Positions 33,399-61,578 of a stretch of DNA of 64,000 nucleotides are shown here, piece by piece. The notes below the pieces were generated by a model that was given only the letters and a program-made list of their open reading frames with translations, was not told where the DNA came from and made no database searches. Position numbers and translations under genes: made by a program. Source of the DNA: Paeniglutamicibacter quisquiliarum (GTDB taxonomy: Bacteria; Actinomycetota; Actinomycetes; Actinomycetales; Micrococcaceae); assembly GCF_019084045.1 (NCBI RefSeq), contig NZ_JAHRED010000007.1, positions 124,001-188,000 of the forward strand, read 5' to 3'. Each line of letters opens with the position of its first letter. Position 1 is the stretch's first letter.

Positions 33399-36300
33399 AT
33401 GCGAAGTTCACCACGCAAGACTCGAAGAGCCATCAGCCTCACGGCGATCGGAGCCCTCACGGCGTCCGCGCTGGTCCCCCTCGGGATGGCCGGCGCGAGC
33501 GCCATGCCCGAAGCACCCGACGGGGCAACGGGCACCATTTCCTCAGCGGAACTCAAGGTCACGGTTTCCCGCGACTTCCCCCAGGTGCTCAGGTACACCG
33601 ATGCCTCGACCTCGGCATCCCTTGAGGCAAGCACCAAGGCGATCGATGCAATCAAGGTCAACGGCGAGACCCACAAGGTCGTGGTGACCTCGGAGCCGGT
33701 GGACGGCTCGGCGATGGACTACCGTCTCACCGTTCCCGGCATTCCCGGTGCCGCCATCGACGCGCGGATCAGCGTCGAGGACTCCGTCATGACCTTCCGC
33801 GTCACCGGCATCAAGGACGGCACCGACACCAAGGTCCGCACGCTGGGCATCCCCGGGAACAACCTGGTCAGCGTGTCCTCGGCCGTCACCGGCGCCCAGG
33901 TCGCCACCGCCAACATCTCCGTGGACCGCGCGAAGTCCGGTGACACCTTCACGAACGTCACGGACTCCACGCCCGTCGACGCCGAACCACGCGGGTCGGC
34001 ATTCGCGCTGGCCAACTCCGGCGATCTCGCCGCCGCGCTCGAGTCGAACTCGCTGCACGACACCTCGGCGGGCCCCGGCTACCGCAGCCAGGGCCGCTTC
34101 GAACGCCAGGCCGTCAAGGACGGCGAGCATGTGCGCGTGGGCATCTCCAGCGGCGACTGGCTCTACCGCGCCAACGAATCGAACGAGACCGAGGAGTTGC
34201 CGTGGTCCAAGGTGAAGATCACCGCCGACGCCAACGGCGATCACACCGTCAACTGGCAGGACGCGGCCATCGCGTTGCGCGACATCGCGGTGCTCCCCCA
34301 CAAGGGCGGCGACGTCAAGGACAAGGTGGTGCAGCGGATCCCATTCAATTTCGCCTCCCAGGCCACGCACCCGTTCCTGCGCACGCTCGATGACACCAAG
34401 CGCATCGCGCTTGCCACCGACGGGCTGGGCCAGTCTGCCATCCTCAAGGGGTTCGGCAGCGAGGGCCACGACTCGGCCAACACCGACTTCGCCGACAACT
34501 ACAACACCCGCGCCGGAGGCCTGAAGGACCTAAACCAGCTCCTGAAGGCCAGCAAGAAGTGGAACGCCTCCTACGGCGTGCACATCAACCAGACCGAGGC
34601 CTACCCCGAATCGAAGTTCTTCTCCGAGGACCTCGTGGACCCGAAGGCCAAGGGCTGGAGCTGGCTGGACCAGTCGTACTACATCAACCAGCGCAAGGAT
34701 ATCCTCACCGGAAACCTGGCCGAGCGCATCAAGAAGTTCCGCGAGCAGACCGACGAGAACCTGGACATGGTCTACGTCGACGTCTACTACCAGTACGGCT
34801 GGCTGGCCGATCGCCTGCAGAAGGAACTGGTCAAGAACGGCTTCCGCGTCAGCTCCGAGTGGGCCTATTCGCTGGACAGGCACAACACCTGGTCGCACTG
34901 GGCCACGGACGAGAACTACGGCGGATCCAACAACAAGGGCGTCAACTCGGAGATCATCCGCTTTGCACTCAATTCGCAGAAGGACACCTGGAACCCGCAC
35001 CCGCTGCTGGGCAACGCGAACATCGTCGAATGGGAAGGCTGGACGGGGCAGACCGACTACAACGCCTTCTACCAAAACATCTGGAAGAAGAACCTTCCGG
35101 CCAAGTACCTGCAGCAGCAGGAGATCATGAAGTGGGAAAAGGACCGGATCGACCTCACCGGCGGCGTGACCGTCACCGGCACCTCGGCGGCCGAAAGGGT
35201 CATCACCGACTCGGGAACCGAGGTCCTGCGCGGGGACACCTACCTGCTGCCCTGGGCCGCCGACGGCACCTACGAGGCCGGCACGAGTGAACCTTCCAAG
35301 TTCTACCACTACAGCGCCAATGGCGGCACCAGCACCTGGACGCTGCCCGAACGCTTCCGCCAGAACGGCGACTACAAGCTGTACCGGCTCACCGACACCG
35401 GGCGCGAACTGGCGGGCGAGCCGACGGCGCGCCGGGGCAAGCTCACCCTGACCGCCAAGGCCGGGCAACCCTACGTGCTGGTCGGCGACGACCGGCCGGT
35501 CCTGCCCCAGGCCCCGGGCTTCGGCCAGGGCACACCCGTCGCCGACCCCGGCTTCAACGCCGCCACCCTCACGGCCTGGAACCCCTCCGGCGCCGCCGCC
35601 ACCGAACGCAACGCCAAGGGCCACCGCTACGCCGTCCTGGGCGAGGGCCCCGCGGCGATCACCCAGCGGCTGGGCGAGCTGAAACCGGGAACCTACTCGG
35701 TCAGCGCCTGGGTCGAGGTGGAGCAGGGACAAACGCGCGAGACGACCCTCTCCGTCACGGGCGAGGGCATGCAATCGGCATCCAACACCATCTCCAGCTC
35801 CCGGGCCACCAACTACGTCGCCGCGGATGAAAAGCACGGCACCAACTTCCAGCGGCTGCGCGTGCTCGTGGACGTGAAGGCAACGGGCAACCCCACGCTG
35901 CGGATCTCCGCCGGGCAGGGTGCAGCCAAGGTGCGCATCGACGACGTGCGGGTCGTTTCAACCTCCAAGGTCCCCACCGCCGGGGTGATCTCGGAGGACT
36001 TCGAGGACATCGACCAGGGCTGGGGGCCGTTCGTGAAGGGCAACGCCGGCGGGTCCACCGACCCCCGCACCCACCTGGCCGAACTCAACGCCCCCTACAC
36101 GCAGTCCGGCTGGAACGGGAAGAAGACCGACGACGTCATCGACGGCAGCTGGTCGCTGAAGTCCCATGCCGAGAACAAGGCGCCGGGCGGGGGCCCGGGC
36201 CTGGTGTACCGGACCAGCAACTACACGCTCCCGCTGAAGCCAGGCCACGAGTACCGGGTCAGCTTCGACTACCAGAACGCGCTGGCGGGCGAATACAACT

Positions 36301-37301
36301 GGGTCGGCGGCTATGCCGCGGCCAGCGGCACGGTCAAGACCCAGACCACCGCCCTGCCCAGCCAACTGGAGACCGCCCGCTTCCAGGACACCATCGTCGC
36401 CGGCGGTTGCGGCGACACCTGGGTGGGCCTGGAACGGGTCGGCGGCAACTCGGAGGCCGACTTCTCGCTGGACAACCTGCTCATCGAGGACCTCGGCGAG
36501 GCGGCAGGCATCCCCGCCTGCGCGCAGGTCGACGTCGCGCTTCAGGGAGACGTGATCAAGCAGGACCAGGAGAACACGTTCACCACGACGTTCACCAGCG
36601 ACGAACCGGCGGACATCAAGGACCTGGAGGTGGGACTCGAACTCCCCGAGGGCTGGACCGCCACCGCCCGGGACGCGGCCTCCGCGCACACGCTGGCACC
36701 GGGTGCGACACTGAAGACCACCTGGAAGGTGGTTCCCCCGGCATCCGCCGACGGCGACTACACCGTCGGCACGCGGGCGACCTACACCACCACCGCCGAC
36801 CCGGTGGGGGCGCGCACCGTGTCCGACGACGTGTCCGTGTACACGCTGCCGGCACCTCCCGCGGGCACCGTCTACGCCAGCGACCACCAGTGGGTCAGCG
36901 CCGAGAACGGCTGGGGCCCGGTGGAGCGGGACAGGGCCAACGGCGAAAACGGGCAGGGCGACGGTCCTGCCCTGACGCTCAACGGCGTGGTCTACGCCAA
37001 GGGCCTGGGTGCCCACGCACCGAGCACCGTGCGCTACTTCACGGGCGGAAAGTGCTCATCCTTCACCGCCGACGTCGGCATCGACGACGCGCAGAAGACC
37101 CTGGGCTCGGTCGGCTTCACCGTGCTGGCCGACGGCAAGTCAGTCGCCGCCTCCCCGGTGATGCGCGCCAGCAGCGCGACCCACGCGCTGAGCGCCGACA
37201 TCACCGGGGCGCAGTACGTGGACCTGGTGGCCGACGTTGCCGGTGACGGCAACGGGAACGACCACGCCGACTGGGCCGACGCGAAGTTCACCTGCTCGTA
37301 G
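33399..37301 (+). CDS. Secreted endo-alpha-N-acetylgalactosaminidase (GH101), multi-domain
   Basis: Predicted to hydrolyse the alpha link between core-1 Gal-beta-1,3-GalNAc and Ser/Thr of mucin-type glycoproteins outside the cell. The 1300-aa protein starts at ATG 33399 behind AAGGAGC and has a signal peptide ending near ASA at residue 35. The catalytic region (about 340-600) has YGVHINQTEAYPESKFF, MVYVDVYY with probable nucleophile D461, SSEWAYSLDRHNTWSHW with probable acid/base E487, and GGSNNKGVNSEIIRFALNSQ. Galactose-binding-like modules follow. A NEW3-type domain spans about 1044-1140 (LPEGWTATARD) and a C-terminal NPCBM domain about 1155-1300 (NGVVYAKGLGAHAPSTVRYF). No sortase or LPXTG signal is seen. 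It is unusual for a soil-type actinobacterium. Confidence 0.93.
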   Translation: MRSSPRKTRRAISLTAIGALTASALVPLGMAGASAMPEAPDGATGTISSAELKVTVSRDFPQVLRYTDASTSASLEASTKAIDAIKVNGETHKVVVTSEPVDGSAMDYRLTVPGIPGAAIDARISVEDSVMTFRVTGIKDGTDTKVRTLGIPGNNLVSVSSAVTGAQVATANISVDRAKSGDTFTNVTDSTPVDAEPRGSAFALANSGDLAAALESNSLHDTSAGPGYRSQGRFERQAVKDGEHVRVGISSGDWLYRANESNETEELPWSKVKITADANGDHTVNWQDAAIALRDIAVLPHKGGDVKDKVVQRIPFNFASQATHPFLRTLDDTKRIALATDGLGQSAILKGFGSEGHDSANTDFADNYNTRAGGLKDLNQLLKASKKWNASYGVHINQTEAYPESKFFSEDLVDPKAKGWSWLDQSYYINQRKDILTGNLAERIKKFREQTDENLDMVYVDVYYQYGWLADRLQKELVKNGFRVSSEWAYSLDRHNTWSHWATDENYGGSNNKGVNSEIIRFALNSQKDTWNPHPLLGNANIVEWEGWTGQTDYNAFYQNIWKKNLPAKYLQQQEIMKWEKDRIDLTGGVTVTGTSAAERVITDSGTEVLRGDTYLLPWAADGTYEAGTSEPSKFYHYSANGGTSTWTLPERFRQNGDYKLYRLTDTGRELAGEPTARRGKLTLTAKAGQPYVLVGDDRPVLPQAPGFGQGTPVADPGFNAATLTAWNPSGAAATERNAKGHRYAVLGEGPAAITQRLGELKPGTYSVSAWVEVEQGQTRETTLSVTGEGMQSASNTISSSRATNYVAADEKHGTNFQRLRVLVDVKATGNPTLRISAGQGAAKVRIDDVRVVSTSKVPTAGVISEDFEDIDQGWGPFVKGNAGGSTDPRTHLAELNAPYTQSGWNGKKTDDVIDGSWSLKSHAENKAPGGGPGLVYRTSNYTLPLKPGHEYRVSFDYQNALAGEYNWVGGYAAASGTVKTQTTALPSQLETARFQDTIVAGGCGDTWVGLERVGGNSEADFSLDNLLIEDLGEAAGIPACAQVDVALQGDVIKQDQENTFTTTFTSDEPADIKDLEVGLELPEGWTATARDAASAHTLAPGATLKTTWKVVPPASADGDYTVGTRATYTTTADPVGARTVSDDVSVYTLPAPPAGTVYASDHQWVSAENGWGPVERDRANGENGQGDGPALTLNGVVYAKGLGAHAPSTVRYFTGGKCSSFTADVGIDDAQKTLGSVGFTVLADGKSVAASPVMRASSATHALSADITGAQYVDLVADVAGDGNGNDHADWADAKFTCS

Positions 37302-37322
37302 GCACCCGCCTGCCAAACGACA

Positions 37323-37365
37323 ATGGCGCCGGATGCCCCCGTTTTACGGGGGCATCCGGCGCCAT
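37323..37365. terminator. Long hairpin between convergent genes
   Basis: A perfect 19-bp stem (37323-37341 with 37347-37365) around a 5-nt TTTTA loop. It lies 22 nt after the GH101 stop and before the GNAT gene stop, so it may stop transcription on both strands. No T tract follows. Confidence 0.75.
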
Positions 37366-37384
37366 CGGCGTTGTTGCGGTGCGG

Positions 37385-38302: not shown

Positions 38303-38306
38303 GTTC

Positions 38307-39692: not shown

Positions 39693-39927
39693 AACAACTC
39701 CAATGGTTCACGAGGCCGCTGGTTGCGGTCCGTTGGGCGAAAACATACTCGCCCAGCCTAACGTGTTTGGGTTGTGAAGTTCGAGCGTCCCGGTGGCCCG
39801 TGGCCGTGAGGCGGACCACCCCCTGGCTCCCGCCCCGGGTGAGGTCCGGGACCCCTTGGGCGCGGGGGCACCCAGCGAATCCCCGGCAGCGGATCCCCGG
39901 CGTCAAGGTCCCTCCGGCGGGCACGGA

Positions 39928-40521: not shown

Positions 40522-40696
40522 GGCGTGGCGCCTCCCGGTTCCCATCGACAGGGATTCGGCCGCGCTTCCATGCCCGTTCTCTTTTCCCTGTTGGCGCGAT
40601 CCTAGGCCAGTCGGGCCCGCAGGTACATGGGGCCGATGCCCCAAATCTCCGGGCATCCTTGTCCGGTCCCCCACCGTCCGGGGACGGCGGCTGCGG

Positions 40697-41686
40697 CTAT
40701 TTCCGCGTCCGGCGCATCCTGCCAAAGGGGATCGAGGCCAGCGCGACGGCCGCAAGCGTCAACAGCGTCCCGGCGATCGTCGCACCGTTGACGACGGCTC
40801 CGGGGGCGGGGACGACCACGTCGATGAGCAGCGACCCAACGAGTTGGCCGCAGATCATGCCCAATCCGGTCAGCAGCACGCCCAGGTGCTTGACTAGGAA
40901 CGCCGAAAGCCCGATGAACACGCATCCCAGTGGGCCGCCCAGGTAGTACCACCACTGGGCGGGCAGGGACTCCGGGAGCCCGACCAGCGGCAGGCGCACC
41001 AGCAGCAGGAGCGCGAGCATGAGCCCGCCGACGAAGAAGTTCACCAGCGTTGCCGCCACCGGCGTCCCGTAGGCCTGCGCCTGGACGCCGTTGGCCGCGG
41101 ATTGGAATCCCATGAGGAAGCCCACCACCAGCGGGATGGCCATCGGCAGCAGCAGGACGGCGATGGATGCGGCCGACCCCATCCTGGGGCTCACGGCCCA
41201 GATGACGCCGGCAATGGTCAATCCGGCACCGAGCGCGCGGAGCGTGCTGATGCGCCGCCGCCCGCCGGGCCCGAAGCCGATGCCGTCAACCAACAGGGAA
41301 CCCAGTGTCTGGCCCGTGACGATGGAGACGGTGAACAGCGCGACGCCCAGCAGTGGCACCGTCAGCGTCTGGGAGATCACCACGAAAGCGCCGACGCAGC
41401 CGGCTGCCAGGTACCAGAGGGGGAAACGCCTCTCGCGCAGGGCGCGCGGGATCGCCATGGCCCCGGCGCGCGCACCGGGCAATAGCAGTGAGGCGATGGC
41501 CAGCACGATCAGTCCGGAGGTGAAGCTGACCAGCGAGGCGGCCACCGGATCCCCCAGCCGGAGCCCCAGGGCGCCGTTGATCCGGCTCTGGATTGGCATC
41601 GCCAACCCGGCCACCACGGCGGTCGCCACATAGAGGGGCGCCAGGGAGCGTTTCTTGCGCAGGGCGGGAGCCGGCGATGAAATCAT
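40697..41686 (-). CDS. DMT transporter, DUF606 (YdcZ) family, subunit 2
   Basis: Membrane protein of 329 aa starting MISSPAPALRKKRSLAPLYV at ATG 41686, overlapping the stop of the upstream paralogue by ATGA. About ten helices form two DUF606 repeats, with MPIQSRINGALGLRLGDPVA, LGVALFTVSIVTGQTLGSLL and MGFQSAANGVQAQAYGTPVA in repeat 2. DUF606 proteins form pairs that probably work as a heterodimer; the substrate is not known. Confidence 0.85.
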   Translation of the reverse strand: MISSPAPALRKKRSLAPLYVATAVVAGLAMPIQSRINGALGLRLGDPVAASLVSFTSGLIVLAIASLLLPGARAGAMAIPRALRERRFPLWYLAAGCVGAFVVISQTLTVPLLGVALFTVSIVTGQTLGSLLVDGIGFGPGGRRRISTLRALGAGLTIAGVIWAVSPRMGSAASIAVLLLPMAIPLVVGFLMGFQSAANGVQAQAYGTPVAATLVNFFVGGLMLALLLLVRLPLVGLPESLPAQWWYYLGGPLGCVFIGLSAFLVKHLGVLLTGLGMICGQLVGSLLIDVVVPAPGAVVNGATIAGTLLTLAAVALASIPFGRMRRTRK

Positions 41687-42663
41687 GATGCCTTCCGTGT
41701 CTTCCAGCGTGGTTGCCCGTTGGGTTGCCACGAGGCCACCAGGACCGCCACCAGCGTGACCAGCGTTCCGACGATTTCGTTTGCACCCACCAATTCGGGC
41801 GAAATGACCAGGTCCATGACGAGGGAGCCGACCAATTGCCCCGTCACCAGCCCCATGCCCAAAAGCAGTGCCCCCAGCCGGGGAACCAGGGTGACACCCG
41901 TGACAACGAAGAGGATGCCCAGCGGCCCGGCAAAGTACATCCACCACAGAGGCGCGTGGGAGAACCCGAATGATTCAATCCGCAGCACGGCCGCAAGTGC
42001 CATGGCCAGCAGCAACCCGGCAGCGGCGGCCACGTAGTTGATGGCCGTTGCCGTGGTGGTGGAGCCATAGGCCTTCCCGGCACGGCCATTCATGGATTGC
42101 TGGAAGCTGACCAAAAGTCCTGCCCCGGCAGCGACGGCCAGGGCAATAAGGGCCCGGGGCGCTTCGGCCGCCTGCGCTCCCGTACCCCAGGCGGCAATCA
42201 CCGCGCCAATGACCAATAGCCCCGCGCCGAGGAGTCGGATGCGGGTGACCGGCTGCTTCCCGGCCGGGCTGAACCCAATCATGTCGATGACGATGCTCGA
42301 CAGGGTCCTGGCACCGACAACCGCGACGGCGAAGAGTGCCAAACCGATGCTGCCCACGCTCATGGCCTGGGCAACCATGTAATACGAGCCGACCAGTCCG
42401 GCCAACAGGAACCACCTCGGGATCGTGCGGTCGCGCCACACGGAGCCGAATTGCCTCCACCCTGCACGGGCCCCGGGAATCGCCACGCTCGCCACCAGGA
42501 GGCAGGCCAGGGACGTGAGCGCGCTGAGAAACGCCGCCGAAAGGTACCCACCGAGGAACCCCGCGCCCTCGGAGGTGATCAAGGCCTGCAGGGGCATCAG
42601 CATCCCGGCCGAGGCGGCCAGCGCCAAGGGGACTGCATGTGCTTGCGGTTCGGGGCGTGCCAC
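41683..42663 (-). CDS. DMT transporter, DUF606 (YdcZ) family, subunit 1
   Basis: Membrane protein of 326 aa with about ten helices in two similar halves, including GLALFAVAVVGARTLSSIVI and MGLVTGQLVGSLVMDLVISP. It has the same fold as the downstream partner at 40697-41686 and is coupled to it through ATGA. Its start is ATG 42663. The pair likely acts as one small-molecule transporter; the substrate is unknown. Confidence 0.85.
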   Translation of the reverse strand: MARPEPQAHAVPLALAASAGMLMPLQALITSEGAGFLGGYLSAAFLSALTSLACLLVASVAIPGARAGWRQFGSVWRDRTIPRWFLLAGLVGSYYMVAQAMSVGSIGLALFAVAVVGARTLSSIVIDMIGFSPAGKQPVTRIRLLGAGLLVIGAVIAAWGTGAQAAEAPRALIALAVAAGAGLLVSFQQSMNGRAGKAYGSTTTATAINYVAAAAGLLLAMALAAVLRIESFGFSHAPLWWMYFAGPLGILFVVTGVTLVPRLGALLLGMGLVTGQLVGSLVMDLVISPELVGANEIVGTLVTLVAVLVASWQPNGQPRWKTRKAS

Positions 42664-42807
42664 TGATCTCCTTGGGGACGGGTTTCCTACTAGTGCAACC
42701 TACTGCGAAGCCCCCAAGGCATGGGCATTATGTCGCCAACACCACAAAACCTGCCTCACGCCCTCCGCTCGTGCATATGCGGTCGGCCGATGCGCCATGA
42801 TGGATAC

Positions 42808-44476: not shown

Positions 44477-44478
44477 GG

Positions 44479-52032: not shown

Positions 52033-52095
52033 GACGTCGATCCTACGTGTTGATCCTGTGTATCCGCACACCCGTTGGCCTGCAAGGATGGAGGG

Positions 52096-52938
52096 GTGAG
52101 ACGAGATGCGCTGCCCCGCGAATACGAGCTGGCGAATGCCCTATATCCCGGACCGGACTGGAAGTCCGCGCACGTGGACGAAGGCGGCCAGTTCCACCTG
52201 GTGCTGGTGGCCGAGGACCAGGCGGTGATGCGCATGGGTCGCACCGCCGAGTCGTCCGCCCGGCTGCAGCGGCGCGTGGACCTGATCCAGGCGCTGTCGG
52301 GCCTCTTCAGTTTCCAGCTGCCCACAGCACTGGGCCCGGTCTGGCACGGCGATGATTTCTCCGCGGTCATCCAGCGCTACATCCCGGGTGCGGCGCACCC
52401 GCCGCACACCGGTGACGCACCACGCCTGCGCTCCGTGCTCGAGGAACTGGCGGCCGTGGACCTGCGGCCGCTTGACGGACTGCTGGCCGAGCCGTATTCG
52501 TTCCGGGGACCGTGGACCGCGCCGAAGATCGACGCGACCTTGTGCGCCTTGCCGCTGGAGTTGGCCGGAGCCGCGCGGCAGGTCCTGGACACCATCCCCG
52601 CCTTCGGGGCAGTGGCGCCTTCGCTGGTCCACGGGGACCTCGCGGGGCACAACATGCGCTGGCGCGATGGCAATCTGCTCGGCATCCTGGACTGGGACCT
52701 GGCCGCGGCATGGGACCCTGCGCTGAACACCGCATATCTCTGTCTCTGGCACGGCACCGACTTCGCCGAGGCCATTGCCCCGAGCCCCGAGGTGGCCTGG
52801 CGCGCCCGAATTTGGCTGGGTGCCATGGCACTGGAGAGCGTCTACGACGCTTCATTGGATCCGGGCCGGGACCTTGGTGCACTGATCGGGAAGATCGGCC
52901 CGCGCCTCGTGGCCGCTGCCGCCGCCACCCGCGGCTAG
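52096..52938 (+). CDS. Aminoglycoside phosphotransferase-family (APH) kinase-like protein
   Basis: Small-molecule kinase-fold protein of 280 aa from GTG 52096 behind GGATGGAG. The catalytic loop is SLVHGDLAGHNMRWRDGN and the metal-binding segment is GILDWDLAAAWDPALN, the hallmarks of the APH superfamily. The expected N-terminal ATP-binding Lys is not obvious. The substrate is unknown and resistance is not implied. The gene shares its stop codon with the convergent DeoR regulator (overlapping CTAG). Confidence 0.85.
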   Translation: MRRDALPREYELANALYPGPDWKSAHVDEGGQFHLVLVAEDQAVMRMGRTAESSARLQRRVDLIQALSGLFSFQLPTALGPVWHGDDFSAVIQRYIPGAAHPPHTGDAPRLRSVLEELAAVDLRPLDGLLAEPYSFRGPWTAPKIDATLCALPLELAGAARQVLDTIPAFGAVAPSLVHGDLAGHNMRWRDGNLLGILDWDLAAAWDPALNTAYLCLWHGTDFAEAIAPSPEVAWRARIWLGAMALESVYDASLDPGRDLGALIGKIGPRLVAAAAATRG

Positions 52939-53741
52939 CGCGGCGCGCCCGGCCGTGGGTCGGCAACAATGACGGGAATGCCCGACTCCACCAATTCGCG
53001 CTGCTGCTCGGCGGTGATCCCGTCATCGGTGATCAGCGCGCTGAAGGTCGACCTGGCCAGCGTTGCAAAGGCGCTGTGCCCGATCTTAGAGGAGTCGCAC
53101 ACCAGGTAGCTGCGGCGCGCCCGGCGGATCATCAAGTCGTTGATGGAAGCCTCGAACTCGTCCGAGACCGTTGGACCGATGTGCGCCTCCAGCCCGTTGA
53201 TGCCCACGAAGGCAACGTCCAGGGTGACCTTCTCCAGGGATTGCTCCGCAAAGGGACCGACCAGCTCGTAGGACCGCGGGTTCAGCACTCCCCCGGTGAC
53301 CATCACCTTCACGTGCGTGCGCACCGCCAGCATCGAGGCGATGTTGACGGCGTTGGTGACCACGGTGAACGTGGTCCGCCCGGAATCGTTGACCAGCTCG
53401 CGGCGCATCCCCAGTTGCGTGGCAATGGCGCTGGACGTCGTGCCGCCCGACAGGCCCACCACCATGTCCTGGGTGACCATGGAGGCCGCGAGCACCGCGA
53501 TGGCGTGCTTCTGCACCGCCGCGTCTTCCTTTTGGTAGCGAACCGGCAGGTCGTAGGCCACGGTGTTGGACACCGCTCCCCCGTGGGTGCGCGAGAGCAG
53601 CGAGGAGGCAGCCAACGAGTCCAGGTCCCGGCGTGCGGTGGCGGGCGAGACCTCGAGCCTGCGCACGATGTCCTCGACCTCGATCTTCCCGAAGCGGGAA
53701 AGCATCTCGAGGATGGCGTTGAGGCGTTCTTCGCGTTTCAC
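52935..53741 (-). CDS. DeoR/GlpR-family transcriptional regulator of the sugar cluster
   Basis: Repressor of 268 aa from GTG 53741 (VKREERLNAILEMLSRFGKI). An N-terminal DeoR helix-turn-helix reads IVRRLEVSPATARRDLDSLA with SLLSRTHGGAV, followed by the effector-binding DeoRC domain (VGLSGGTTSSAIATQL, VTGGVLNPRSYELVGP). It is last in the ABC importer operon region and likely controls both that operon and the catabolic operon upstream. The effector is probably a phosphorylated amino sugar or tagatose phosphate. Confidence 0.9.
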   Translation of the reverse strand: MKREERLNAILEMLSRFGKIEVEDIVRRLEVSPATARRDLDSLAASSLLSRTHGGAVSNTVAYDLPVRYQKEDAAVQKHAIAVLAASMVTQDMVVGLSGGTTSSAIATQLGMRRELVNDSGRTTFTVVTNAVNIASMLAVRTHVKVMVTGGVLNPRSYELVGPFAEQSLEKVTLDVAFVGINGLEAHIGPTVSDEFEASINDLMIRRARRSYLVCDSSKIGHSAFATLARSTFSALITDDGITAEQQRELVESGIPVIVADPRPGAPR

Positions 53742-53928: not shown

Positions 53929-54786
53929 CTACTTTACAGCTCCGGCGGCAAGGCCGCCGATCAGCCGCTTCTCAATGAGCATGAACAGGACAATCACCGG
54001 GATGATGGCCACGATCGAGACGCCGAAGACATATTGCCAGGCGGTGGAATACTGTCCCACGAACCTGGTCAGCGCCACCGACAGCGGCTGGTTCTCCGCG
54101 GTGGAGAGGATGACCAGGGAGGCGGCGAATTCGTTCCAGCAGGAGACGAAGGTGAAGATCACCGCGGTCACGATGCCCGGCCAGACCAGCGGCAGGTTGA
54201 TACGGAAGAGCACCCGGAGCTTTCCGGCCCCGTCGATCTGGGCGGCCTCGTCGACCTCCTTGGGAACGGAGGCAAAGAACGAATGCATGATCCACACGGC
54301 GAAGGCCAGGTTGAAGGCGGCGTTGATCAGGATCATGGCCAGCCAGGTGTCGTAGAGATTCATGGCGAGCATCTGCTTGAACAGGCCCGCGGTCAGCACC
54401 GCCGGCTGCAGCATCTGGGTGACGATCACCAGGAACATGAAGACCATCTTGCCCGGGAACTTGAAGCGGGCGGTGTAGTAGGCGGCCGGGGTGGCCACCA
54501 GCAGCACCAGCAAGGTGGCCGAGAGGGAGATGACGATGGTGGAGATGAGGTTGAAGGCCACCGGTGTTTCGGGGGTGTCCCACATGGTCAGGTAGTTCGA
54601 CCACTGCGCCCCTTCCCGCGGCATGTAGCTTGGCGGGATGGCAAGGATTTCGGCCTGGGTCTTGAGCGACCCAAAGAACATGATCCCGTAGGGAATCAGG
54701 AACGCGACGGCAACCAGCAAGCCCACAACCATGCGCCAAATGACGGTTCGGCGGGACGCACGGTCCTCGGTGATCAGGATCGACAT
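53929..54786 (-). CDS. Carbohydrate ABC transporter permease (MalG type)
   Basis: Six-helix permease of 285 aa starting MSILITEDRASRRTVIWRMV. The EAA loop that docks the ATPase reads EVDEAAQIDGAGKLRVLFRI. It lies 7 nt downstream of the MalF-type permease. No ATPase gene is present, so a shared MsiK-like ATPase encoded elsewhere is likely, as is common for actinobacterial sugar importers. Confidence 0.92.
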   Translation of the reverse strand: MSILITEDRASRRTVIWRMVVGLLVAVAFLIPYGIMFFGSLKTQAEILAIPPSYMPREGAQWSNYLTMWDTPETPVAFNLISTIVISLSATLLVLLVATPAAYYTARFKFPGKMVFMFLVIVTQMLQPAVLTAGLFKQMLAMNLYDTWLAMILINAAFNLAFAVWIMHSFFASVPKEVDEAAQIDGAGKLRVLFRINLPLVWPGIVTAVIFTFVSCWNEFAASLVILSTAENQPLSVALTRFVGQYSTAWQYVFGVSIVAIIPVIVLFMLIEKRLIGGLAAGAVK

Positions 54787-54793
54787 GGGATTC

Positions 54794-55717
54794 CTAGACC
54801 TCCCTCATGGGCTTGACCGTCTTGACGTAGATCGCGACAATCACCAGCACGATCGCGAAGTTCACCACCGAGAGCGCCGAGGAGATGTCCAGCCGGCGGT
54901 CGAATTGCAGCACCTTGAAGATGTAGGTCATCAAGGTGTCCGCGCTGTAGCCGGGAATGGAACCGGTGATGATCTTCAGGATCGGCAGGTTGTTGAACAC
55001 GTTGATGATGTTGATCAGCACGGCAACCGCCAGCGCCCCGCGCAGCTGCGGCAGGATCACGAAAATGTAGGTTCCCCAGCGATTCGCCCCGTCCATGCGG
55101 GCGGCCTCCAACGTCTCGTTGGGGATCGCCTGCAGGCCGGCCAGGAGCGTGTAGGTGGTGAACGGAATCGACACGAAGATCGCAACCACGATGGCCACCG
55201 CCATGGCCGGGACGGCGTTCTTGGTGAACCCGTAGCCCTCGTCCAGGACGCCGATGTCGGTGAGGAACTTGTTGAAGATCCCGTAGTTGGGATCCGCCGC
55301 GTAGTAGAACACGGTGGTGGTCATGACCACCGACGCCGCCCACGGGACGATGACTGCCATGCGCACCAGGGTCCGCCCGGGGAAGGGCTTGTTCAGGAAC
55401 TGCGCCAGCGCCAGCGAAATCACCACGGTGATTGCCACCACGACCACCACCCAGACCACGGTGTTCAGCAGGATGCGCGGCAGCGCCGGGTCGGCGAAGA
55501 CCTTGGAGAAGTTCGCGAATCCCACGCCCTCGAGGTCGGTGCCGACCTGCGAGATCTTCCGGGTGGAGTTGTAGATCATGTATCCGGCCGGGAACACCAC
55601 GATGGCCAGGATCAGCAGGAGGGCCGGCCCGATCCAGGGCAGCGCCGAGAGGAACGACCCGCCTTCCCTGGCGGAGGTGCGCGCGGATCTGCGCTTCGGG
55701 GCGGTTGCGACGCTCAT
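54794..55717 (-). CDS. Carbohydrate ABC transporter permease (MalF type)
   Basis: Permease of 307 aa with about six helices and an EAA loop ETLEAARMDGANRWGTYIF. It follows the binding protein gene with a 107-nt gap and precedes the MalG-type permease. The N-terminus is basic (MSVATAPKRRSARTSA), with a first helix near residues 25-47. Confidence 0.92.
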   Translation of the reverse strand: MSVATAPKRRSARTSAREGGSFLSALPWIGPALLLILAIVVFPAGYMIYNSTRKISQVGTDLEGVGFANFSKVFADPALPRILLNTVVWVVVVVAITVVISLALAQFLNKPFPGRTLVRMAVIVPWAASVVMTTTVFYYAADPNYGIFNKFLTDIGVLDEGYGFTKNAVPAMAVAIVVAIFVSIPFTTYTLLAGLQAIPNETLEAARMDGANRWGTYIFVILPQLRGALAVAVLINIINVFNNLPILKIITGSIPGYSADTLMTYIFKVLQFDRRLDISSALSVVNFAIVLVIVAIYVKTVKPMREV

Positions 55718-55824
55718 GGCGGGGGTCTCCTGCGTTACGGGGACGGAAATTGGTTGGCCTCAACCGCGGACGGGGCTCCCATGGTGGAGGTGAGCCCCGT
55801 CCGTCTCGGCCGGGAGCGGTGCAG

Positions 55825-57087
55825 CTAGCTGGCCGCGTCGGCCTTGGCCTGGATTTCCTTCAGGACCTCCGCAGCGCTCTTGCCCGTGTCGATCTGCCCC
55901 ATCAACGACTTGAACGCGCCATCGGTGGCGTTCCATGCAGGGTTGGTGGTCGGGTAGAACACCGCATTGGGCAACATGTCCAGGAACGGCTTGAGCGTCT
56001 CGTCGCCCGCCAGCTTCTCGGAGCCGGACTTGGTGGTCGGCAGGAAGCCCTCGGTGGACACCCAATCGGTGTAGACGTCGGCGGCGAAGAAGTAGTCCAT
56101 GAACTTCTTGACGGCCGCGGTCTTGGACCCGTCGTTCTTGAACGACATCAGGCGGTCGGCGACGCCGAGGGTTGCCGGGGCACCGGACTTGGTGGCCACC
56201 GGCGCGATGCCGTACTCAAGGTCGGGGTTCTCCTTCTCGATCTGGCCAACGGTCTGCGGCAGCCCATAGGCGAAACCCAGCTTGCCCTGGACGAAGGTGT
56301 TGAGCATCGGGGTGCGCTGGGTGGCCCCCGGGTTCTTTTGCGTGGCCCCGTCCTTGATCATCTTCTGCATGTACTCGGTGGCCTCGACGTTGGCCGGGGT
56401 GTCCACGGCAATGCTGGCGGTGTCGCCGAAGTTGCCGCCGTTGCCGGCGAACCAGATCATCGATTCGCCCTGCGCTTCTTCGCTGCCCAGCGGCATGCCG
56501 TAGCCGTCGGCCTTGGTCTTCTCGCTCACGGCCATGGCTGCGTCGTGGAGTTCGTCCCAGGTCTTGGGGACCGCGGAGATCCCGGCCTCCTCCATCAGCG
56601 TCTTGTTGTAGAACAGGGCGCGGGCCGAGGCAATCAGCGGCAGGCCGTACTGGGTTCCTTCGAGCTTTTCGTTGTCGGCAAACGAGGGCTGGAAGTCGGC
56701 CACGGTCGCCTCGGAGGCGATGTCGGTGGCCGGGGCCAGCAGTCCCTCGGCGGCGAATTCGGCGAAGGCGCCGCCGTTGTAGATGTCGGGTGCCTTGTTG
56801 CCCTGGACCTTCGTCTTCAGCACGCTTTCCAGGTTTTCCCAGGACTGGATCTCAAGGTTGATCTTCACGTCCGAGTTGGCAGCCTCGAAGTCCTTGATCA
56901 CGCCCTCCCACAGGGCCTTGGTTCCGGTGGAATAGCTGGGAACCAGCATGTCCAGGGTGGTGACGCTGCCGGGGGCGCCGGACTCGCCGCCGTCGGTGGT
57001 GCCCCCGCCGAATCCGCAAGAGGTCAGCAGCAGCGCGGCGGCCGCAGCGCCGGCAATGAATGTTCCTCGGAGAGTGCGCTTTTTCAT
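55825..57087 (-). CDS. Sugar ABC transporter substrate-binding lipoprotein
   Basis: Extracellular binding lipoprotein of 420 aa starting MKKRTLRGTFIAGAAAAALL at ATG 57087, with lipobox LTSC followed by GFGGGTTDGGES. The mature part fits the family 1 sugar-binding proteins (DMLVPSYSTGTKALWEGVIK, APDIYNGGAFAEFAAEGLL). It is first in the importer operon, preceded by a strong palindromic operator at 57151-57188. The substrate is probably an amino sugar or GalNAc-containing oligosaccharide, inferred from the catabolic genes. Confidence 0.92.
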   Translation of the reverse strand: MKKRTLRGTFIAGAAAAALLLTSCGFGGGTTDGGESGAPGSVTTLDMLVPSYSTGTKALWEGVIKDFEAANSDVKINLEIQSWENLESVLKTKVQGNKAPDIYNGGAFAEFAAEGLLAPATDIASEATVADFQPSFADNEKLEGTQYGLPLIASARALFYNKTLMEEAGISAVPKTWDELHDAAMAVSEKTKADGYGMPLGSEEAQGESMIWFAGNGGNFGDTASIAVDTPANVEATEYMQKMIKDGATQKNPGATQRTPMLNTFVQGKLGFAYGLPQTVGQIEKENPDLEYGIAPVATKSGAPATLGVADRLMSFKNDGSKTAAVKKFMDYFFAADVYTDWVSTEGFLPTTKSGSEKLAGDETLKPFLDMLPNAVFYPTTNPAWNATDGAFKSLMGQIDTGKSAAEVLKEIQAKADAAS

Positions 57088-57112
57088 CGGTCCTCGTTCC
57101 AGGTGGTCGATG

Positions 57113-57188
57113 TGATCGTTTGTCACTTCACAACGACAAGAGTGATGTTATGTGCTTTATTTGCAATTAGAACGATCAATAAAGCACA
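57113..57188. promoter_or_regulatory. Candidate DeoR-type operator and promoter of the importer operon
   Basis: A perfect 11-bp inverted repeat TGTGCTTTATT (57151-57161) and AATAAAGCACA (57178-57188) with a 16-nt spacer lies about 64-101 bp upstream of the binding-protein start. The decamer TGATCGTTTG (57113-57122) recurs upstream of the SIS gene at 61654-61663, and AACGATCA (57171-57178) inside the spacer is its complement. A second imperfect repeat, TCGTTTGT...ACAACGA, spans 57116-57136. On the minus strand, TAACAT and TTCTAA are -10/-35-like and overlap the palindrome. Confidence 0.6.
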
Positions 57189-57386
57189 CCTTCCCTCGAT
57201 TATGCTGTGACCACGGACACGCCGTCAAGTGGTCGGGAGTCCAATCCCGGGAAATTTCCACGTTGGCCGGGAAGGTGCGGGTAAAGCCTTGTCACCCGGG
57301 GATTTTTGGGCGCATGCCCGAGCGCGAAACAGGGTATGGGGTGCCGTGGCGGGAAGACTGCGGGACGGGGTACTCGAAAGCGCGAA

Positions 57387-57809
57387 CTACTCGGCGGAGG
57401 GGCGCTGCCGCTGCCTTTTCGTTTCCGAACGCCGGCTCTTTGCGGCGAGGCGCCGTTTCTTCGAACCCCTGGTCGGTTTTGTTGCGCGCCGGCTCGCGGG
57501 CTCCGGGGCGAGGCCGGCGGCCACCAGCTCGGCGAGCTTGCGCAGGGCGGTTTCGCGATTCCGAAGTTGGGAACGCTGCTCCGAGGCGGTCACCGTGATC
57601 ACCCCTGAAACGAGGCGACGCCCGAGGCGGGTGAGCAACATCGTGCGCTGGTCCTCGGTGAGCGCCAGCGATTCGGCGATGTTCCAGAAGAGTTCTACCC
57701 GGCTGTCCGACGTGTTGACGTGCTGGCCCCCGGGCCCGGAGGAGCGCGAGAACCGCCAGCCCAATTCCGCCGCGGGAATCGTGAGCTCGGGCGACACCAA
57801 CAGATCCAT
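57387..57809 (-). CDS. arfB: Alternative ribosome-rescue factor ArfB (GGQ-domain peptidyl-tRNA hydrolase)
   Basis: 140-aa release-factor-like hydrolase that rescues stalled ribosomes. It starts MDLLVSPELTIPAAELGWRF and has the GGQ catalytic motif SRSSGPGGQHVNTSDSRVEL with Q29. The basic tail (KKRRLAAKSRRSETKRQRQR) inserts in the mRNA channel. It lies inside the sugar-gene run between the aldolase and binding-protein genes, with no functional link. Confidence 0.92.
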   Translation of the reverse strand: MDLLVSPELTIPAAELGWRFSRSSGPGGQHVNTSDSRVELFWNIAESLALTEDQRTMLLTRLGRRLVSGVITVTASEQRSQLRNRETALRKLAELVAAGLAPEPASRRATKPTRGSKKRRLAAKSRRSETKRQRQRPSAE

Positions 57810-57888
57810 GCATTAAGTGTTGCACGATGCGGCCCGGGGCCCGGGCCGCCGGGAGCGGCGGCACCCGTTGCATCACCGGGACGGATTC

Positions 57889-58731
57889 CTAGGGGCGCCG
57901 CCCGGCGAAAAGGCGCAGCAGGCGCGCGGTTTCGGCGGCCATGGCCTCCCGGCCGCGTGCCAGGTACTTGCGCGAATCGACCACCTCGGGGTTTTCCTCG
58001 AGGTACTGGCGAATGGCACGGGTGAAGAAGCCGTTCAGGTGCGTGGAGACATTGATCTTGGTCATGCCCGCCTCGATGGCAGCCACGATGTTCTCGTCGC
58101 TGACCCCCGAGGATCCGTGAAGCACCAGCGGAACATCCAGTGCGGCGCGGATCCGTCCGATCAGCTCGATATCCAGCGCCGCGGATCGATCGAGCATGGC
58201 GTGGGAGGATCCCACCGCCACGGCCAGGGCGTCCACGCCGGTGGCACCCACGAAAGACGCCGCCTCCACGGGATCCGTGCGCACACCCGGTGCGTGGGCG
58301 CCGTCCTTGCCGCCGACCTTGCCCAGCTCCGCCTCGACGTAGACCCCGGCGGCGTGAGCGTACTCGGCCACTCGCCTGGTGGCGGCGACGTTGTCGTCGT
58401 ACTCCAGGTGTGCCCCGTCAAACATGATCGAGCCGAAGCCCAGGTCCACCGCCGCGCGGGCGAGATCTTCCGATTCCGCGTGGTCCAGGTGCACGGCCAC
58501 GGGAACCGCCGCGTTTCGGGCGGCGGCGAGGGTTGCCAGGGACACCGGCTCCAGGCCCCCGTGGTAGGCGACGCAATTTTCGGAGATCTGCAGGATCACC
58601 GGGGTTTGCGCCAGCTCGGCGCCCCGGATCAGCGCCTCGGCGCTTTCCAGGTGGATGACGTTGAAGGCACCCTGGCCGATGTTGGCGCTACGGGCGGCGT
58701 TCATGATTTCTGCGGTATTGACCAGGGGCAC
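57889..58731 (-). CDS. Class II ketose-bisphosphate aldolase (tagatose-type)
   Basis: Zinc-dependent aldolase of 280 aa. It has VAVHLDHAESEDLARAAVDL with the first metal ligand, FGSIMFDGAHLEYDDNVAAT, EAELGKVGGKDGAHAPGVRT and LVLHGSSGVSDENIVAAIEA. The GatY/KbaY-type layout next to a PfkB kinase suggests cleavage of tagatose-1,6-bisphosphate to DHAP and glyceraldehyde-3-phosphate. Fructose-bisphosphate is also possible. Confidence 0.9.
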   Translation of the reverse strand: MPLVNTAEIMNAARSANIGQGAFNVIHLESAEALIRGAELAQTPVILQISENCVAYHGGLEPVSLATLAAARNAAVPVAVHLDHAESEDLARAAVDLGFGSIMFDGAHLEYDDNVAATRRVAEYAHAAGVYVEAELGKVGGKDGAHAPGVRTDPVEAASFVGATGVDALAVAVGSSHAMLDRSAALDIELIGRIRAALDVPLVLHGSSGVSDENIVAAIEAGMTKINVSTHLNGFFTRAIRQYLEENPEVVDSRKYLARGREAMAAETARLLRLFAGRRP

Positions 58732-58781
58732 CGTGGATGCGTCCTTTCAAGTGGTGTGGAGGGGGCGTGCCGCAGGTGCGG

Positions 58782-59717
58782 CTAGCGCTCCGTGGAGGAA
58801 TCAAGGATGAGTGCGCGGGCAAGGTCCGGGTGCGAGGGATGCAGCTCCCCCGCCGTCGGCATCAGCACCGCGGAGGCGGCCCAGGCCGCCGCGCGGGGAA
58901 GGATCACCGAGTCGTGGTCCTCGCGCCGGTGCAGGCCCACCGCGACGGCGGCGACCACCGAGTCCCCGGCGCCGGTGGGATTGCCCGACAGGGGCTCGGG
59001 CAGGCGGGCGGATGCCCATTGCCCGGGGGTTGCGGCGGCAAAGTGGAAGAGGCCCGCCGCTCCGGCGCTCGCATAGACATGCCCGGCCCCGGCAGCCAAG
59101 AGCATCGCGGCACCCGCCGCCAGCGAATCGGTGCCGGTGGTCTCGGCCAGCTCGTGGTGGTTGGGCTTGAGCACCGTGGCCCCGGCGCGGGCAGCGGCCA
59201 GCAATGCGGGGCCGGAGGTGTCGATGATGCTGGGGATGCCGCGGCGTGCCGCTTCCCGCACGCACCACGGATAGAAATCCTCGTCCGCCCCCTGGGGCAA
59301 TGACCCGGAGGCCACCAGGACCGTTGCCCCGCGGTCCAGCTGCGCGAGGATCCGCGCGCGGACGGCGTCCCATTCGTGCGTGCCCAGCGCCCCTCCGCGT
59401 TCGTTGAATACCGTGGTGCGACCCGTTGCGTGCTCGACCACGGCGAAACTTCGCCGGGTCTCGGCCGCGACGGGGATCAGTGCGTGCCCGACCCCGGCGG
59501 ATTCCAGTTCCCGGGTGAACACCCGCCCGTTGGCCCCGCCCACCGGAGCCAGCGCAATGACCTCGCAGCCCTGGGAGTGGGCCACCCGGGCCACGTTCAG
59601 TCCCTTGCCGCCGGCCCGGCGCATCGGGGCATCGACGCGGTTGGTCCCGCCCACGTCCATGACCTCGAGGCCGTAGGTCTCATCGACGGCGGGGTTCGGT
59701 GTGATCGTCAGGATCAT
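58782..59717 (-). CDS. PfkB-family hexose-phosphate kinase (1-phosphofructokinase / tagatose-6-phosphate kinase type)
   Basis: Ribokinase-fold kinase of 311 aa starting MILTITPNPAVDETYGLE at ATG 59717, overlapping the ROK kinase stop by ATGA. It has the GGKGLNVARVAHSQGCEV glycine loop and the catalytic NPTGAGDSVVAAVAVGL. Acting with the downstream aldolase (50 nt away), the likely substrate is tagatose-6-phosphate. Fructose-1-phosphate is an alternative. Confidence 0.92.
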   Translation of the reverse strand: MILTITPNPAVDETYGLEVMDVGGTNRVDAPMRRAGGKGLNVARVAHSQGCEVIALAPVGGANGRVFTRELESAGVGHALIPVAAETRRSFAVVEHATGRTTVFNERGGALGTHEWDAVRARILAQLDRGATVLVASGSLPQGADEDFYPWCVREAARRGIPSIIDTSGPALLAAARAGATVLKPNHHELAETTGTDSLAAGAAMLLAAGAGHVYASAGAAGLFHFAAATPGQWASARLPEPLSGNPTGAGDSVVAAVAVGLHRREDHDSVILPRAAAWAASAVLMPTAGELHPSHPDLARALILDSSTER

Positions 59718-60643
59718 GGCTTCGCGCCAAGCGCCTCGGCGGCTTTCAGGAAGGCGCCGCGCAGGCCCGCATCCTCGCCGAGCTGGGCCGGGACGATGAG
59801 CGGTTCCCGATGGTAGGAGAGCCTGCTGCGGACCGAGTGGCGCAGCGGTTCCAGCAGCGCCTCCCCGGCCTGGGCCAGCCCGCCGCCGATGATGACAGCC
59901 TCGGGGGCGATGGAGGCGCTGAGCTGGGCGATGGAAAAGGCGATGGCCTGCACGGCCTCGTCCCAGATCCTTGCCGCCGTAGGGTCCCCGGCGGCCATGG
60001 CCTCGAGCACCTCGCGGGCGCCGCGCACCTGGGTGCCGGTCGCCTGCGCGTAGCGCCTGGCGATGGCACCGGCCGATCCGAGGGTTTCCAGGCAGCCGTG
60101 GGCGCCGCAGGGGCAATCGAGCCCGCCCGGCACCGCCGCGTGGCCGAGTTCGCCAGCATATCCGCCGGCCGAGACCGGGCGCCCGTCGACGAAAAGCGCT
60201 GCGGCAACGCCGGTCCCGATGACCAGCATAACCGCGTTGCGGACCTTGCTTCCCAGCGCGGCACCTGCCCCGAATTCGAGTTCCGCGGCGCCGGCCATCG
60301 CCACGTCGTGGCCGAAGCCGACCGGGAGGCCGAAGGCCCGGGCAGCCATGTCGCGAAGGGGGGCATCGCGCCACCCGAGGTTTGCGGAGAACAGCCCGCG
60401 CCCGCGCTGCTCGTCGACGAGCCCGCACACCAGCAGCCCGACTGCCGCGGGGCGGAGAGCGGGCGCCTCCGCCATCACGTCGCTCCCCAGCCCGTGGAGC
60501 TGCTCGATCAGCGTTTCCGCGGGCTGCGCGGTGTCGCGCCGGGTGGGGACCCGGCGAATGCCCAGCAGGTTTCCCGCGTCGTCGCAGAGCGCAGCCTTGA
60601 TGTCGGTGCCTCCGACATCGAAGAGCAGGTATGGAGGGTTCAT
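59714..60643 (-). CDS. ROK-family sugar kinase
   Basis: Sugar kinase of 309 aa. It has the ATP-binding DVGGTDIKAALCDDAGNLLG, a substrate region GHDVAMAGAAELEFGAG, and the zinc-binding ROK signature DCPCGAHGCLETLGS. ROK kinases phosphorylate free hexoses or amino sugars. In this cluster it is a candidate GalNAc/galactosamine kinase. It lies 26 nt downstream of the SIS gene and is coupled to the PfkB kinase. Confidence 0.9.
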   Translation of the reverse strand: MNPPYLLFDVGGTDIKAALCDDAGNLLGIRRVPTRRDTAQPAETLIEQLHGLGSDVMAEAPALRPAAVGLLVCGLVDEQRGRGLFSANLGWRDAPLRDMAARAFGLPVGFGHDVAMAGAAELEFGAGAALGSKVRNAVMLVIGTGVAAALFVDGRPVSAGGYAGELGHAAVPGGLDCPCGAHGCLETLGSAGAIARRYAQATGTQVRGAREVLEAMAAGDPTAARIWDEAVQAIAFSIAQLSASIAPEAVIIGGGLAQAGEALLEPLRHSVRSRLSYHREPLIVPAQLGEDAGLRGAFLKAAEALGAKP

Positions 60644-60669
60644 GGTGTCAGGGACTCCCGGTCGCTTGC

Positions 60670-61578
60670 CTAGGCCTCGTCGGAGAGGATGACCGAGCGC
60701 GTCAGGTTGCGCGGGGCATCCGGGTTCATGCCCCGGGCGCGGGCTCGGTCCAGCGTGACACGGTGGATGCGGGCCAGCTCGGCCAGCGGGTGCACGTCGT
60801 TGTTGATGTACAGGGCGCCGGTGCGCACCATGTCCCCGGCCAGTCCCTCGGGCTCCTCGCCGAGCATCCAGGTGACGCGGTTGGGTGCGGCGATGGCGAT
60901 GGGGCCGTGGCGGTAGTCCATGGCGGGGTAGGACTCGGTCCAGCCCTGCACGGCCTCGCGCATCTTCAGCGCCGCCTCGTGGGCCAGCCCGACGCTCCAG
61001 CCGCGGCCCAGGAAGGTGAATTGCTCGGCGTCGATCAGTTCCGCCGGGGTCTGTGCGGCGACGGCAACCCGGGCCTCGGCTACGGCGTCGGTGAGGTCCA
61101 CGCCGACGCTGGTGAGCAGGTAGGCCAGTGCGGTGGTGGCAAAGCGGGTCTGCACCACCGATTCCTCGTCCGCGTACGGCAGCTGGACCACGGCGTCGAC
61201 CTTGGACACGATCGGGGAGGTGATGTCGCCGATGACCGCGACGGTCGGGATGGATCCGTCAAGCTCCGCCAGCAGTTCCAGGACCTCGGAGGTGGTGCCC
61301 GAGCGGGTGATGGCCACCAGCACGTCGTAGTCGCGGGTGGCGATGAAGGCCTCGGAGGCGGCGAAGGCATCGGTGACGCCCTTGCCGGCGGATTCGCGTG
61401 CGGCGGCGTAGGCCTGGGCCATGAACCAGGAGGTGCCGCAGCCCACGACGGCCACGCGCTTGCCGTCGGCCGGCAGCAGGCTCTCTGCCTTGGACTGGGC
61501 GATTGCACGTTCCCACATCTCGGGCTGCGAGGTGAGTTCGGCGTCCATGTGGTGGCCAAGCTGGCTGGTGTCGCTCAA
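60670..61578 (-). CDS. SIS-domain sugar isomerase/deaminase-like protein (AgaS-like)
   Basis: Protein of 302 aa from TTG 61578 behind AAGGAG (LSDTSQLGHHMDAELTSQ). The two SIS domains are VAVVGCGTSWFMAQAYAAAR with ITRSGTTSEVLELLAELDG, and FLGRGWSVGLAHEAALKMRE with SYPAMDYRHGPIAIA. This layout is shared with AgaS and the GlmS isomerase domain. It is probably a ketose/aldose-amino-sugar-6-phosphate deaminase or isomerase. It heads the catabolic operon; an ATG 51 nt upstream (61629) is less likely. Confidence 0.88.
   Translation of the reverse strand: MSDTSQLGHHMDAELTSQPEMWERAIAQSKAESLLPADGKRVAVVGCGTSWFMAQAYAAARESAGKGVTDAFAASEAFIATRDYDVLVAITRSGTTSEVLELLAELDGSIPTVAVIGDITSPIVSKVDAVVQLPYADEESVVQTRFATTALAYLLTSVGVDLTDAVAEARVAVAAQTPAELIDAEQFTFLGRGWSVGLAHEAALKMREAVQGWTESYPAMDYRHGPIAIAAPNRVTWMLGEEPEGLAGDMVRTGALYINNDVHPLAELARIHRVTLDRARARGMNPDAPRNLTRSVILSDEA

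Follow-up and report, generated by a model that had tools for sequence, protein, structure and literature searches.

The use of mucin-type O-glycans has been studied mainly in gut and mucosal bacteria. In Streptococcus pneumoniae, a GH101 endo-alpha-N-acetylgalactosaminidase (SpGH101), the GH35 beta-1,3-galactosidase BgaC and an aga operon are found in one organism. The present analysis concerns a stretch of 64,000 nucleotides from Paeniglutamicibacter quisquiliarum, a member of the Micrococcaceae (RefSeq assembly GCF_019084045.1, contig NZ_JAHRED010000007.1, positions 124,001 to 188,000 of the forward strand), referred to below as the window, in which a GH101 gene is located 15.6 kb from an amino-sugar cluster with a gene for a SIS-domain protein. 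The window probably holds the front and back end of a pathway for core-1 (mucin-type) O-glycans, further parts of which would be encoded on another contig of the same genome, C32.

Several related systems have been described. In S. pneumoniae, the aga operon for N-acetylgalactosamine (GalNAc) is controlled by AgaR and import proceeds through a phosphotransferase system (PTS) (PMC5018945). Bifidobacterium combines GH101 with an ATP-binding cassette (ABC) importer and a phosphorylase (PMC6109692). The gnb operon of Lactobacillus casei encodes a PTS, the GH35 enzyme GnbG, the deacetylase GnbF and the deaminase GnbE; galacto-N-biose (GNB) is split intracellularly, GnbG prefers phosphorylated GNB and the organism relies on other microbes for GNB release (PMC6109692). 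In the aga pathway a deaminase is followed by tagatose-6-phosphate steps, and in Shewanella the permease AgaP and the kinase AgaK replace the PTS (PMC2996990). AgaS is regarded as the signature of GalNAc utilization, with non-orthologous replacements on record (PMC5583593). The mucin-induced polysaccharide utilization locus BT4240-50 of Bacteroides thetaiotaomicron contains a GNB-active beta-1,3-galactosidase and a GalNAc kinase; the same paper names Arthrobacter once, as the source of a sialidase (PMC11992087). A literature search by title and start of the abstract, with most subscription journals outside its scope, gave no description of this pathway in Micrococcaceae.

The set of P. quisquiliarum is predicted to join a Bifidobacterium-like entry to splitting by GH35 and an aga-like end without AgaS. 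As in S. pneumoniae, GH101 and GH35 occur together, the second Protein Data Bank (PDB) match of the GH35 being 4e8c, and the kinds of step have a precedent, since GH101, BgaC and the aga operon are all present in that organism. Unlike the PTS-dependent set of S. pneumoniae, the set found here has ABC importers, a LacI-linked operator, a ROK kinase and no AgaS, a contrast drawn between gene sets as described. The likeness to the GNB/lacto-N-biose pathway of Bifidobacterium (EngBF, GltABC, LnpA, NahK) lies in the predicted release of GNB by GH101 and in predicted ABC import, with a matching solute-binding protein (SBP) on C32; unlike in Bifidobacterium, no GH112 was found in the genome, a GH35 hydrolase being predicted instead, and GalNAc is predicted to leave via tagatose-6-phosphate rather than by a 1-kinase and an epimerase. 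Splitting by GH35 in the cell, followed by removal of the acetyl and amino groups from the amino sugar phosphate, would be shared with the gnb system of L. casei, from which the own GH101 and the predicted ABC importer and ROK kinase differ. The predicted deaminase and subsequent tagatose-6-phosphate steps resemble the aga/AgaS pathway of Proteobacteria; the SIS protein outside the AgaS family, the cluster in which no deacetylase was seen and the coupling to GH101 do not. BT4240-50 is unlike the present system in having GH2 instead of GH35, plus SusD-type capture.

GH101 and the amino-sugar cluster

The pathway genes in the window are the following.

33399..37301, plus strand: GH101 endo-alpha-N-acetylgalactosaminidase (1300 aa; NEW3 and NPCBM modules; signal-like N-terminus; Pfam, best PDB match EngBF)
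52935..53741, minus strand: DeoR-family regulator (PF00455, PF08220; AgaR model at 148.8 bits, under the cut-off of 260)
53929..54786, minus strand: ABC permease (PF00528)
54794..55717, minus strand: ABC permease (PF00528)
55825..57090, minus strand: ABC solute-binding protein SBP1 (PF01547)
57889..58731, minus strand: class II aldolase, predicted tagatose-1,6-bisphosphate aldolase (PF01116; TIGR00167 above cut-off)
58782..59717, minus strand: PfkB-family kinase, predicted tagatose-6-phosphate kinase (PF00294; NCBIfam TIGR03168 hexose kinase above cut-off)
59714..60643, minus strand: ROK-family sugar kinase, predicted GalNAc or galactosamine kinase (PF00480)
60670..61581, minus strand: SIS-domain protein outside the AgaS family, predicted galactosamine-6-phosphate deaminase/isomerase (PF01380)

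The GH101 gene is complete (reading frame 33363-37301, ATG at 33399) and the only one detected in the genome. Seven Pfam domains pass the cut-off in its product: PF12905, PF18080, PF17451, PF21466, PF17974, PF10633 (NEW3) and PF08305 (NPCBM), the catalytic domain PF12905 with 402.5 bits against a cut-off of 25. The closest PDB matches are structures of Bifidobacterium EngBF, and D461 and E487 align to EngBF (2zxq) Asp and Glu residues within ‘LDVW’ and ‘TTEW’, respectively, which we take to be its catalytic residues. Judged by eye, the N-terminus is signal-like, with a basic start, a hydrophobic stretch and an Ala-rich end. An original prediction, made from the letters of the window, had proposed a GH101 enzyme with these two residues and NEW3/NPCBM modules, and translation, Pfam and the alignment to EngBF agree with it. 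Its cluster of ABC, SIS, ROK, PfkB, class II aldolase and DeoR genes was likewise recovered by domain searches, on the minus strand from the DeoR regulator (52935) to the SIS protein (61581), with some start codons uncertain.

Within the cluster, the best PDB match of PfkB is the tagatose-6-phosphate kinase 2jgv, and that of the aldolase is a fructose-bisphosphate aldolase, with AgaY (1gvf) matching at E 1.3e-48; both proteins fall in the right superfamilies, with scores under the specific tagatose equivalog cut-offs. The SIS protein matches models of the GlmD/GlmS/NagB-II type weakly, the best NCBIfam model being GlmD (85.1 bits, cut-off 580). Its best PDB matches are 2cb0, 2dec and 8eol, which we take to be archaeal GlmS-like proteins and NagB-II-type deaminases. 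A separate nagB above cut-off is present elsewhere in the genome, so that the SIS protein would not be needed for glucosamine. From its sequence, the SIS protein is predicted to be a galactosamine-6-phosphate deaminase outside the AgaS family.

A gene for an APH-fold protein (52075-52938, plus strand) adjoins the DeoR gene, and does so beside the cluster in most maps of the own genus and of genus g23. It shows a weak likeness to capreomycin/viomycin phosphotransferases, far under the cut-offs, and is probably an ordinary small-molecule kinase.

Co-occurrence and gene order of GH101 and SIS

A set of 295 Micrococcaceae genomes was surveyed (labels of genera, genomes and loci are those of the survey), in which GH101 was detected by family and SIS by the window protein at E up to 1e-30. 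GH101 was found in 35 genomes and SIS in 85, one of these a partial match; the earlier statement that neither is standard in soil Micrococcaceae holds for GH101 and is weaker for the SIS gene. All 35 GH101 genomes carry SIS (hypergeometric 2.7e-22). Two cruder controls were made because kinship inflates this figure. At genus level, SIS occurs in 16 of 32 genera, and these include all eight with GH101 (chance 0.0012). The within-genus chances multiply to 2.5e-6, mainly through genus g10, where GH101 is present in 4 and SIS in 5 of 23 genomes and all four GH101 genomes are shared.

Synteny agrees with the association proposed from the window, as the two genes are adjacent and divergent in 26 of the 35 GH101 genomes, where the catalytic domain of GH101 and the SIS match are separated by 1.1-1.8 kb. 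The spacing in the remaining nine is 6 kb (one genome), 24-37 kb (four, of the own genus) and at least 81 kb or on separate contigs (four). Maps of 20 kb, drawn with a simple gene caller that called no genes in L075, show the order hutI / GH101 / SIS-ROK-PfkB-aldolase-DeoR in several genera, and SIS-ROK-PfkB-aldolase-ABC-DeoR without adjoining GH101 in the own genus and g23. In a tree of 51 of the 59 GH101 matches (duplicates and second loci from the same genomes excluded; long-branch warnings for L243, G158, G008, G290, G020 and G077), the SIS-neighbouring enzymes are divided between a deep clade, with about 40% identity to the window enzyme, and other lineages at 51-62%. Because distant GH101 lineages adjoin SIS, the association apparently has more than one origin.

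Two observations concern GH101 itself. In L075 (genome G144) the family search found the catalytic domain as two pieces, the second with two internal stops, and this GH101 has therefore likely decayed; GH35 and SIS genes are present in that genome. The interval between dusB and GH101 differs in gene content among three mapped genomes of the own genus (L076 4315-7004, L077 12336-16364, window 32420-32977), which suggests a variable insertion spot.

Promoter sites of GH101 and SIS

Three sites were located in the promoter regions of the window.

33309..33322, plus strand: LacI-type operator-like palindrome TGTTATCCATAACA, exact match, 77 bp upstream of the GH101 ATG
33209..33222, plus strand: TGCTATGGATCACA, possibly a second operator, located 100 bp before the first palindrome
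61640..61682, minus strand: conserved promoter block before the SIS gene, TGATCG...CGATCATAAGCAATCATAG, predicted DeoR operator (footprint)

The palindromic site in the GH101 promoter, TTGTTATCCATAACA, is conserved in the own genus and in genus g24, and the window contains two matches to TGTTATCCATAACA at up to two mismatches where 0.12 are expected. The position of the second operator is occupied by TGATATGGATCACA in three genomes of the same genus, and in two Oerskovia genomes the reverse complement of TGATATGGATCACA was seen by eye between the genes for LacI and the SBP. Three occurrences of TTGTTATNNATAACA were found in the own genome, one in the GH101 promoter and two on C32 with 1.2 kb between them. 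As a control, the backwards TTGTTATNNATAACA pattern gave no match in 13 genomes searched, the own genome included. The shorter pattern TGTTATNNATAACA is present in 43 of the 295 genomes, compared with six for its backwards form (one match each); the 43 include eight genomes of genus g3 with a TT/AA-centred variant that is probably another element. In these eight, the variant TGTTATTTATAACA occurs 1-3 times per genome, often close to contig ends, and is probably part of an unrelated repeated element. With at most one mismatch, the palindrome lies upstream of GH101 in 20 of the 35 GH101 genomes among the matches listed (four of g1, 13 of g24, G193, G008 and G020); two more, G052 and G113, are undecided from these matches. 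LacI would be the protein that reads it.

The block before the SIS gene is kept in eight sequences of the same genus (window included) and is weaker in two g23 genomes. A related sequence, ACAAACGATCACA, is found at 57111-57123 before the SBP1 gene, its number of matches not being above chance. A single regulator for GH101 and the cluster was considered and is not supported: at up to two mismatches, no SIS motif was found at the GH101 promoter and no LacI-type palindrome at the SIS promoter. As the promoters carry different motifs, co-induction of GH101 and the cluster need not stem from one regulator, and a conserved block proper to the SIS promoter makes it probable that DeoR controls one half and LacI the other.

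The lacI, GH35 and importer locus on C32

The two C32 palindromes flank lacI, whose neighbours to either side are a GH35 beta-galactosidase gene and the genes of an ABC importer. In survey locus L137, GH35 is encoded at 8102-9856 and the SBP of the importer at 11348-12664. By sequence similarity, the SBP of this importer has its best PDB match in 2z8d, the galacto-N-biose/lacto-N-biose binding protein of Bifidobacterium (E 1.7e-53). It is present in 6 of 15 genomes of the own genus, including all of the four with GH101. The best PDB matches of the GH35 are 4mad, then 4e8c, presumably the BgaC enzymes of Bacillus circulans and S. pneumoniae, respectively, with beta-1,3 preference. No signal peptide was noticed by eye in its open frame.

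In three Oerskovia genomes (Cellulomonadaceae), lacI and SBP-permease-permease-GH35-GH101 are contiguous, with identities to the own proteins of 52-53% for lacI, 49-51% for the SBP, 66% for the permease and 48-49% for GH35. They account for three of the 80 named GH101 loci that were kept from a total of 197. GH35 and lacI also stand beside GH101 in Isoptericola and one Microbacterium; in the flanking DNA examined, often short, nearly all Streptomyces GH101 loci showed none of the genes sought. Six of seven genomes probed in genus g24 have a lacI relative (52-56%) beside GH35, with the palindrome between the two genes.

Of the 35 GH101 genomes, 34 contain such a GH35 (E up to 1e-100). G158 is the sole GH101 genome without it and the sole one with GH112, and this GH112 phosphorylase adjoins its GH101 and an ABC importer, an alternation that looks like one step filled by unrelated enzymes. 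The GH35 survey covered 61 genomes, of which 26 were hand-chosen GH101-negative genomes, so that the 11 of 26 with GH35 give no fair background rate.

Other candidates for parts of the system were discarded. GH112 as the splitting enzyme of the own genome was dropped after a search that found none there and detects it in G158. The g24 importer differs from that of C32, which rules out a single importer across all palindrome regulons. An M66 protease (StcE-like family) as a regular partner was rejected, with matches at E below 1e-40 in 9 of the 295 genomes and GH101 in only three of these nine; at E up to 0.001 there were 20 genomes, the own genome not among them. In G246 (L154 9086-12778), a GH101-type palindrome was observed upstream of an M66 peptidase (StcE/TagA-like) that bears a ricin-type lectin domain, which would fit recruitment of a glycoprotein protease into the palindrome regulon of that genome.

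Proposed pathway

In the probable core-1 pathway, GH101, secreted from the cell, would release Gal-beta-1,3-GalNAc (GNB) from Ser/Thr of glycoproteins. The disaccharide would be imported by the GNB-type ABC system of C32 and hydrolysed inside the cell by the BgaC-like GH35 beta-1,3-galactosidase, with importer, GH35 and GH101 under the LacI repressor through their common operator. Galactose would pass into central metabolism. GalNAc would be phosphorylated by the ROK kinase and deacetylated by one of the two NagA proteins encoded elsewhere in the genome. The SIS protein is predicted to deaminate and isomerise the resulting amino sugar phosphate to tagatose-6-phosphate, which PfkB would phosphorylate and from which, as tagatose-bisphosphate, the class II aldolase would yield triose phosphates. 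We infer secretion, all substrates, the position phosphorylated by ROK and the acting NagA. The computed evidence that carries this proposal comprises the domains, conserved residues, co-occurrence, adjacency, common palindrome, Oerskovia cluster and GH35/GH112 alternation.

Entry through the C32 system is more likely, on similarity and distribution, than entry through the ABC system of the window. SBP1 was found in 36 of the 295 genomes (E up to 1e-60), all SIS-positive, and is probably not a GNB importer because it is rare in GH101 genomes; it may bring in galactosamine or GalNAc.

Several findings weigh against the core-1 pathway or against a simple form of it. With the AgaS model TIGR02815 the SIS protein scores 26.3 bits against a cut-off of 529.2, and the label ‘AgaS-like’ of the original prediction was abandoned on this result. 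The PDB ranking of the ROK kinase has glucokinases at the top, followed by N-acetylmannosamine and N-acetylglucosamine (GlcNAc) kinases. The scanned genes of the cluster showed no deacetylase; both NagA proteins that pass the cut-off are encoded outside the window, on contigs C31 and C32, one adjoining nagB in a GlcNAc module and the other adjoining nucS. GH35, the GNB-type importer and lacI are outside the window too, on C32. SBP1 is present in 6 of 35 GH101 genomes and in 30 of 50 SIS genomes without GH101 (Fisher p 1.2e-4, kinship uncontrolled). Upstream of GH101, no palindrome was found in 13 of the 35 genomes (g10, g20, g26 and G158), some of which were checked in the 1.5 kb before the catalytic domain only. 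In g24 the importer bearing the palindrome is not orthologous to that of C32, and its SBP has no GNB-binding-protein match. The SIS match of G158 is 55% identical and located on another contig than its GH101. Among the 80 named GH101 loci, SIS is near GH101 in eight, all Arthrobacter or Paenarthrobacter, and was not found in those of other genera, with flanks of 10 kb at most and many shorter.

The distribution of SBP1 also favours a cluster that serves free galactosamine or GalNAc (or bacterial or fungal galactosamine polymers) through its own importer, GH101 being a separate add-on whose disaccharide feeds the cluster only in part. The 50 of 85 SIS genomes without GH101 and the different conserved motifs at the SIS and GH101 promoters fit such a role, which we nevertheless consider unlikely as a full account: no GH101 was found without SIS in the 295 genomes, and GH101 is usually the neighbour of SIS. 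Use of the free sugars is moreover compatible with the core-1 pathway, as a common core with two entry routes.

It is much less probable that the SIS/ROK/PfkB/aldolase set breaks down a different sugar, such as a derivative of fructosamine or glucosamine, and that its nearness to GH101 reflects shared inheritance. The weak matches of SIS to GlmD/GlmS/NagB-II models rather than AgaS, a ROK kinase closest to glucokinases and a cluster in which no deacetylase was seen point that way; PfkB and the aldolase are, however, unnecessary for glucosamine, which nagB elsewhere in the genome already covers, the best match of PfkB is a tagatose-6-phosphate kinase, and distant GH101 lineages adjoin the set. 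Mere coincidence, an unrelated GH101 gene 16 kb off, is hardly credible. The four own-genus genomes that have both show 24-37 kb between the matched domains, and only 4 of 15 own-genus genomes have GH101, as coincidence would allow, but co-occurrence, adjacency in other genera and the GH35/GH112 alternation already disfavour it.

The core-1 pathway is thus retained as the probable one, in a system that is larger and differently wired than first proposed. Of the original idea that GH101 and the cluster form one glycoprotein-use system, the link is supported (co-occurrence in 35/35, adjacency in 26/35 genomes); the window importer is the less likely entry of the disaccharide, and the AgaS-like label was not upheld.

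Neighbouring genes

Between GH101 and the cluster, an adjacent pair of YdcZ-family membrane proteins (PF04657) is encoded at 40697-41731 and 41683-42663 on the minus strand, perhaps a tandem duplication or a paired exporter.

Implications for Arthrobacter-like bacteria

Our judgement is evenly balanced on a wider proposal: that the LacI-controlled front end (GH101, GNB importer and GH35) and the DeoR-controlled back end constitute a distinct modular pathway in Micrococcaceae and some related actinobacteria, that the SIS protein founds a clade of non-AgaS galactosamine-6-phosphate deaminases, and that the joining of the front end to this back end happened repeatedly, involving distant GH101 lineages. 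The analysis yields a defined predicted operator and a candidate deaminase outside the AgaS family, together with new predicted enzymes of GH101 and GH35. Many Arthrobacter-like bacteria live in soil, and the predicted pathway with its regulator, if true, would suggest that mucin-type O-glycoproteins serve as food there.

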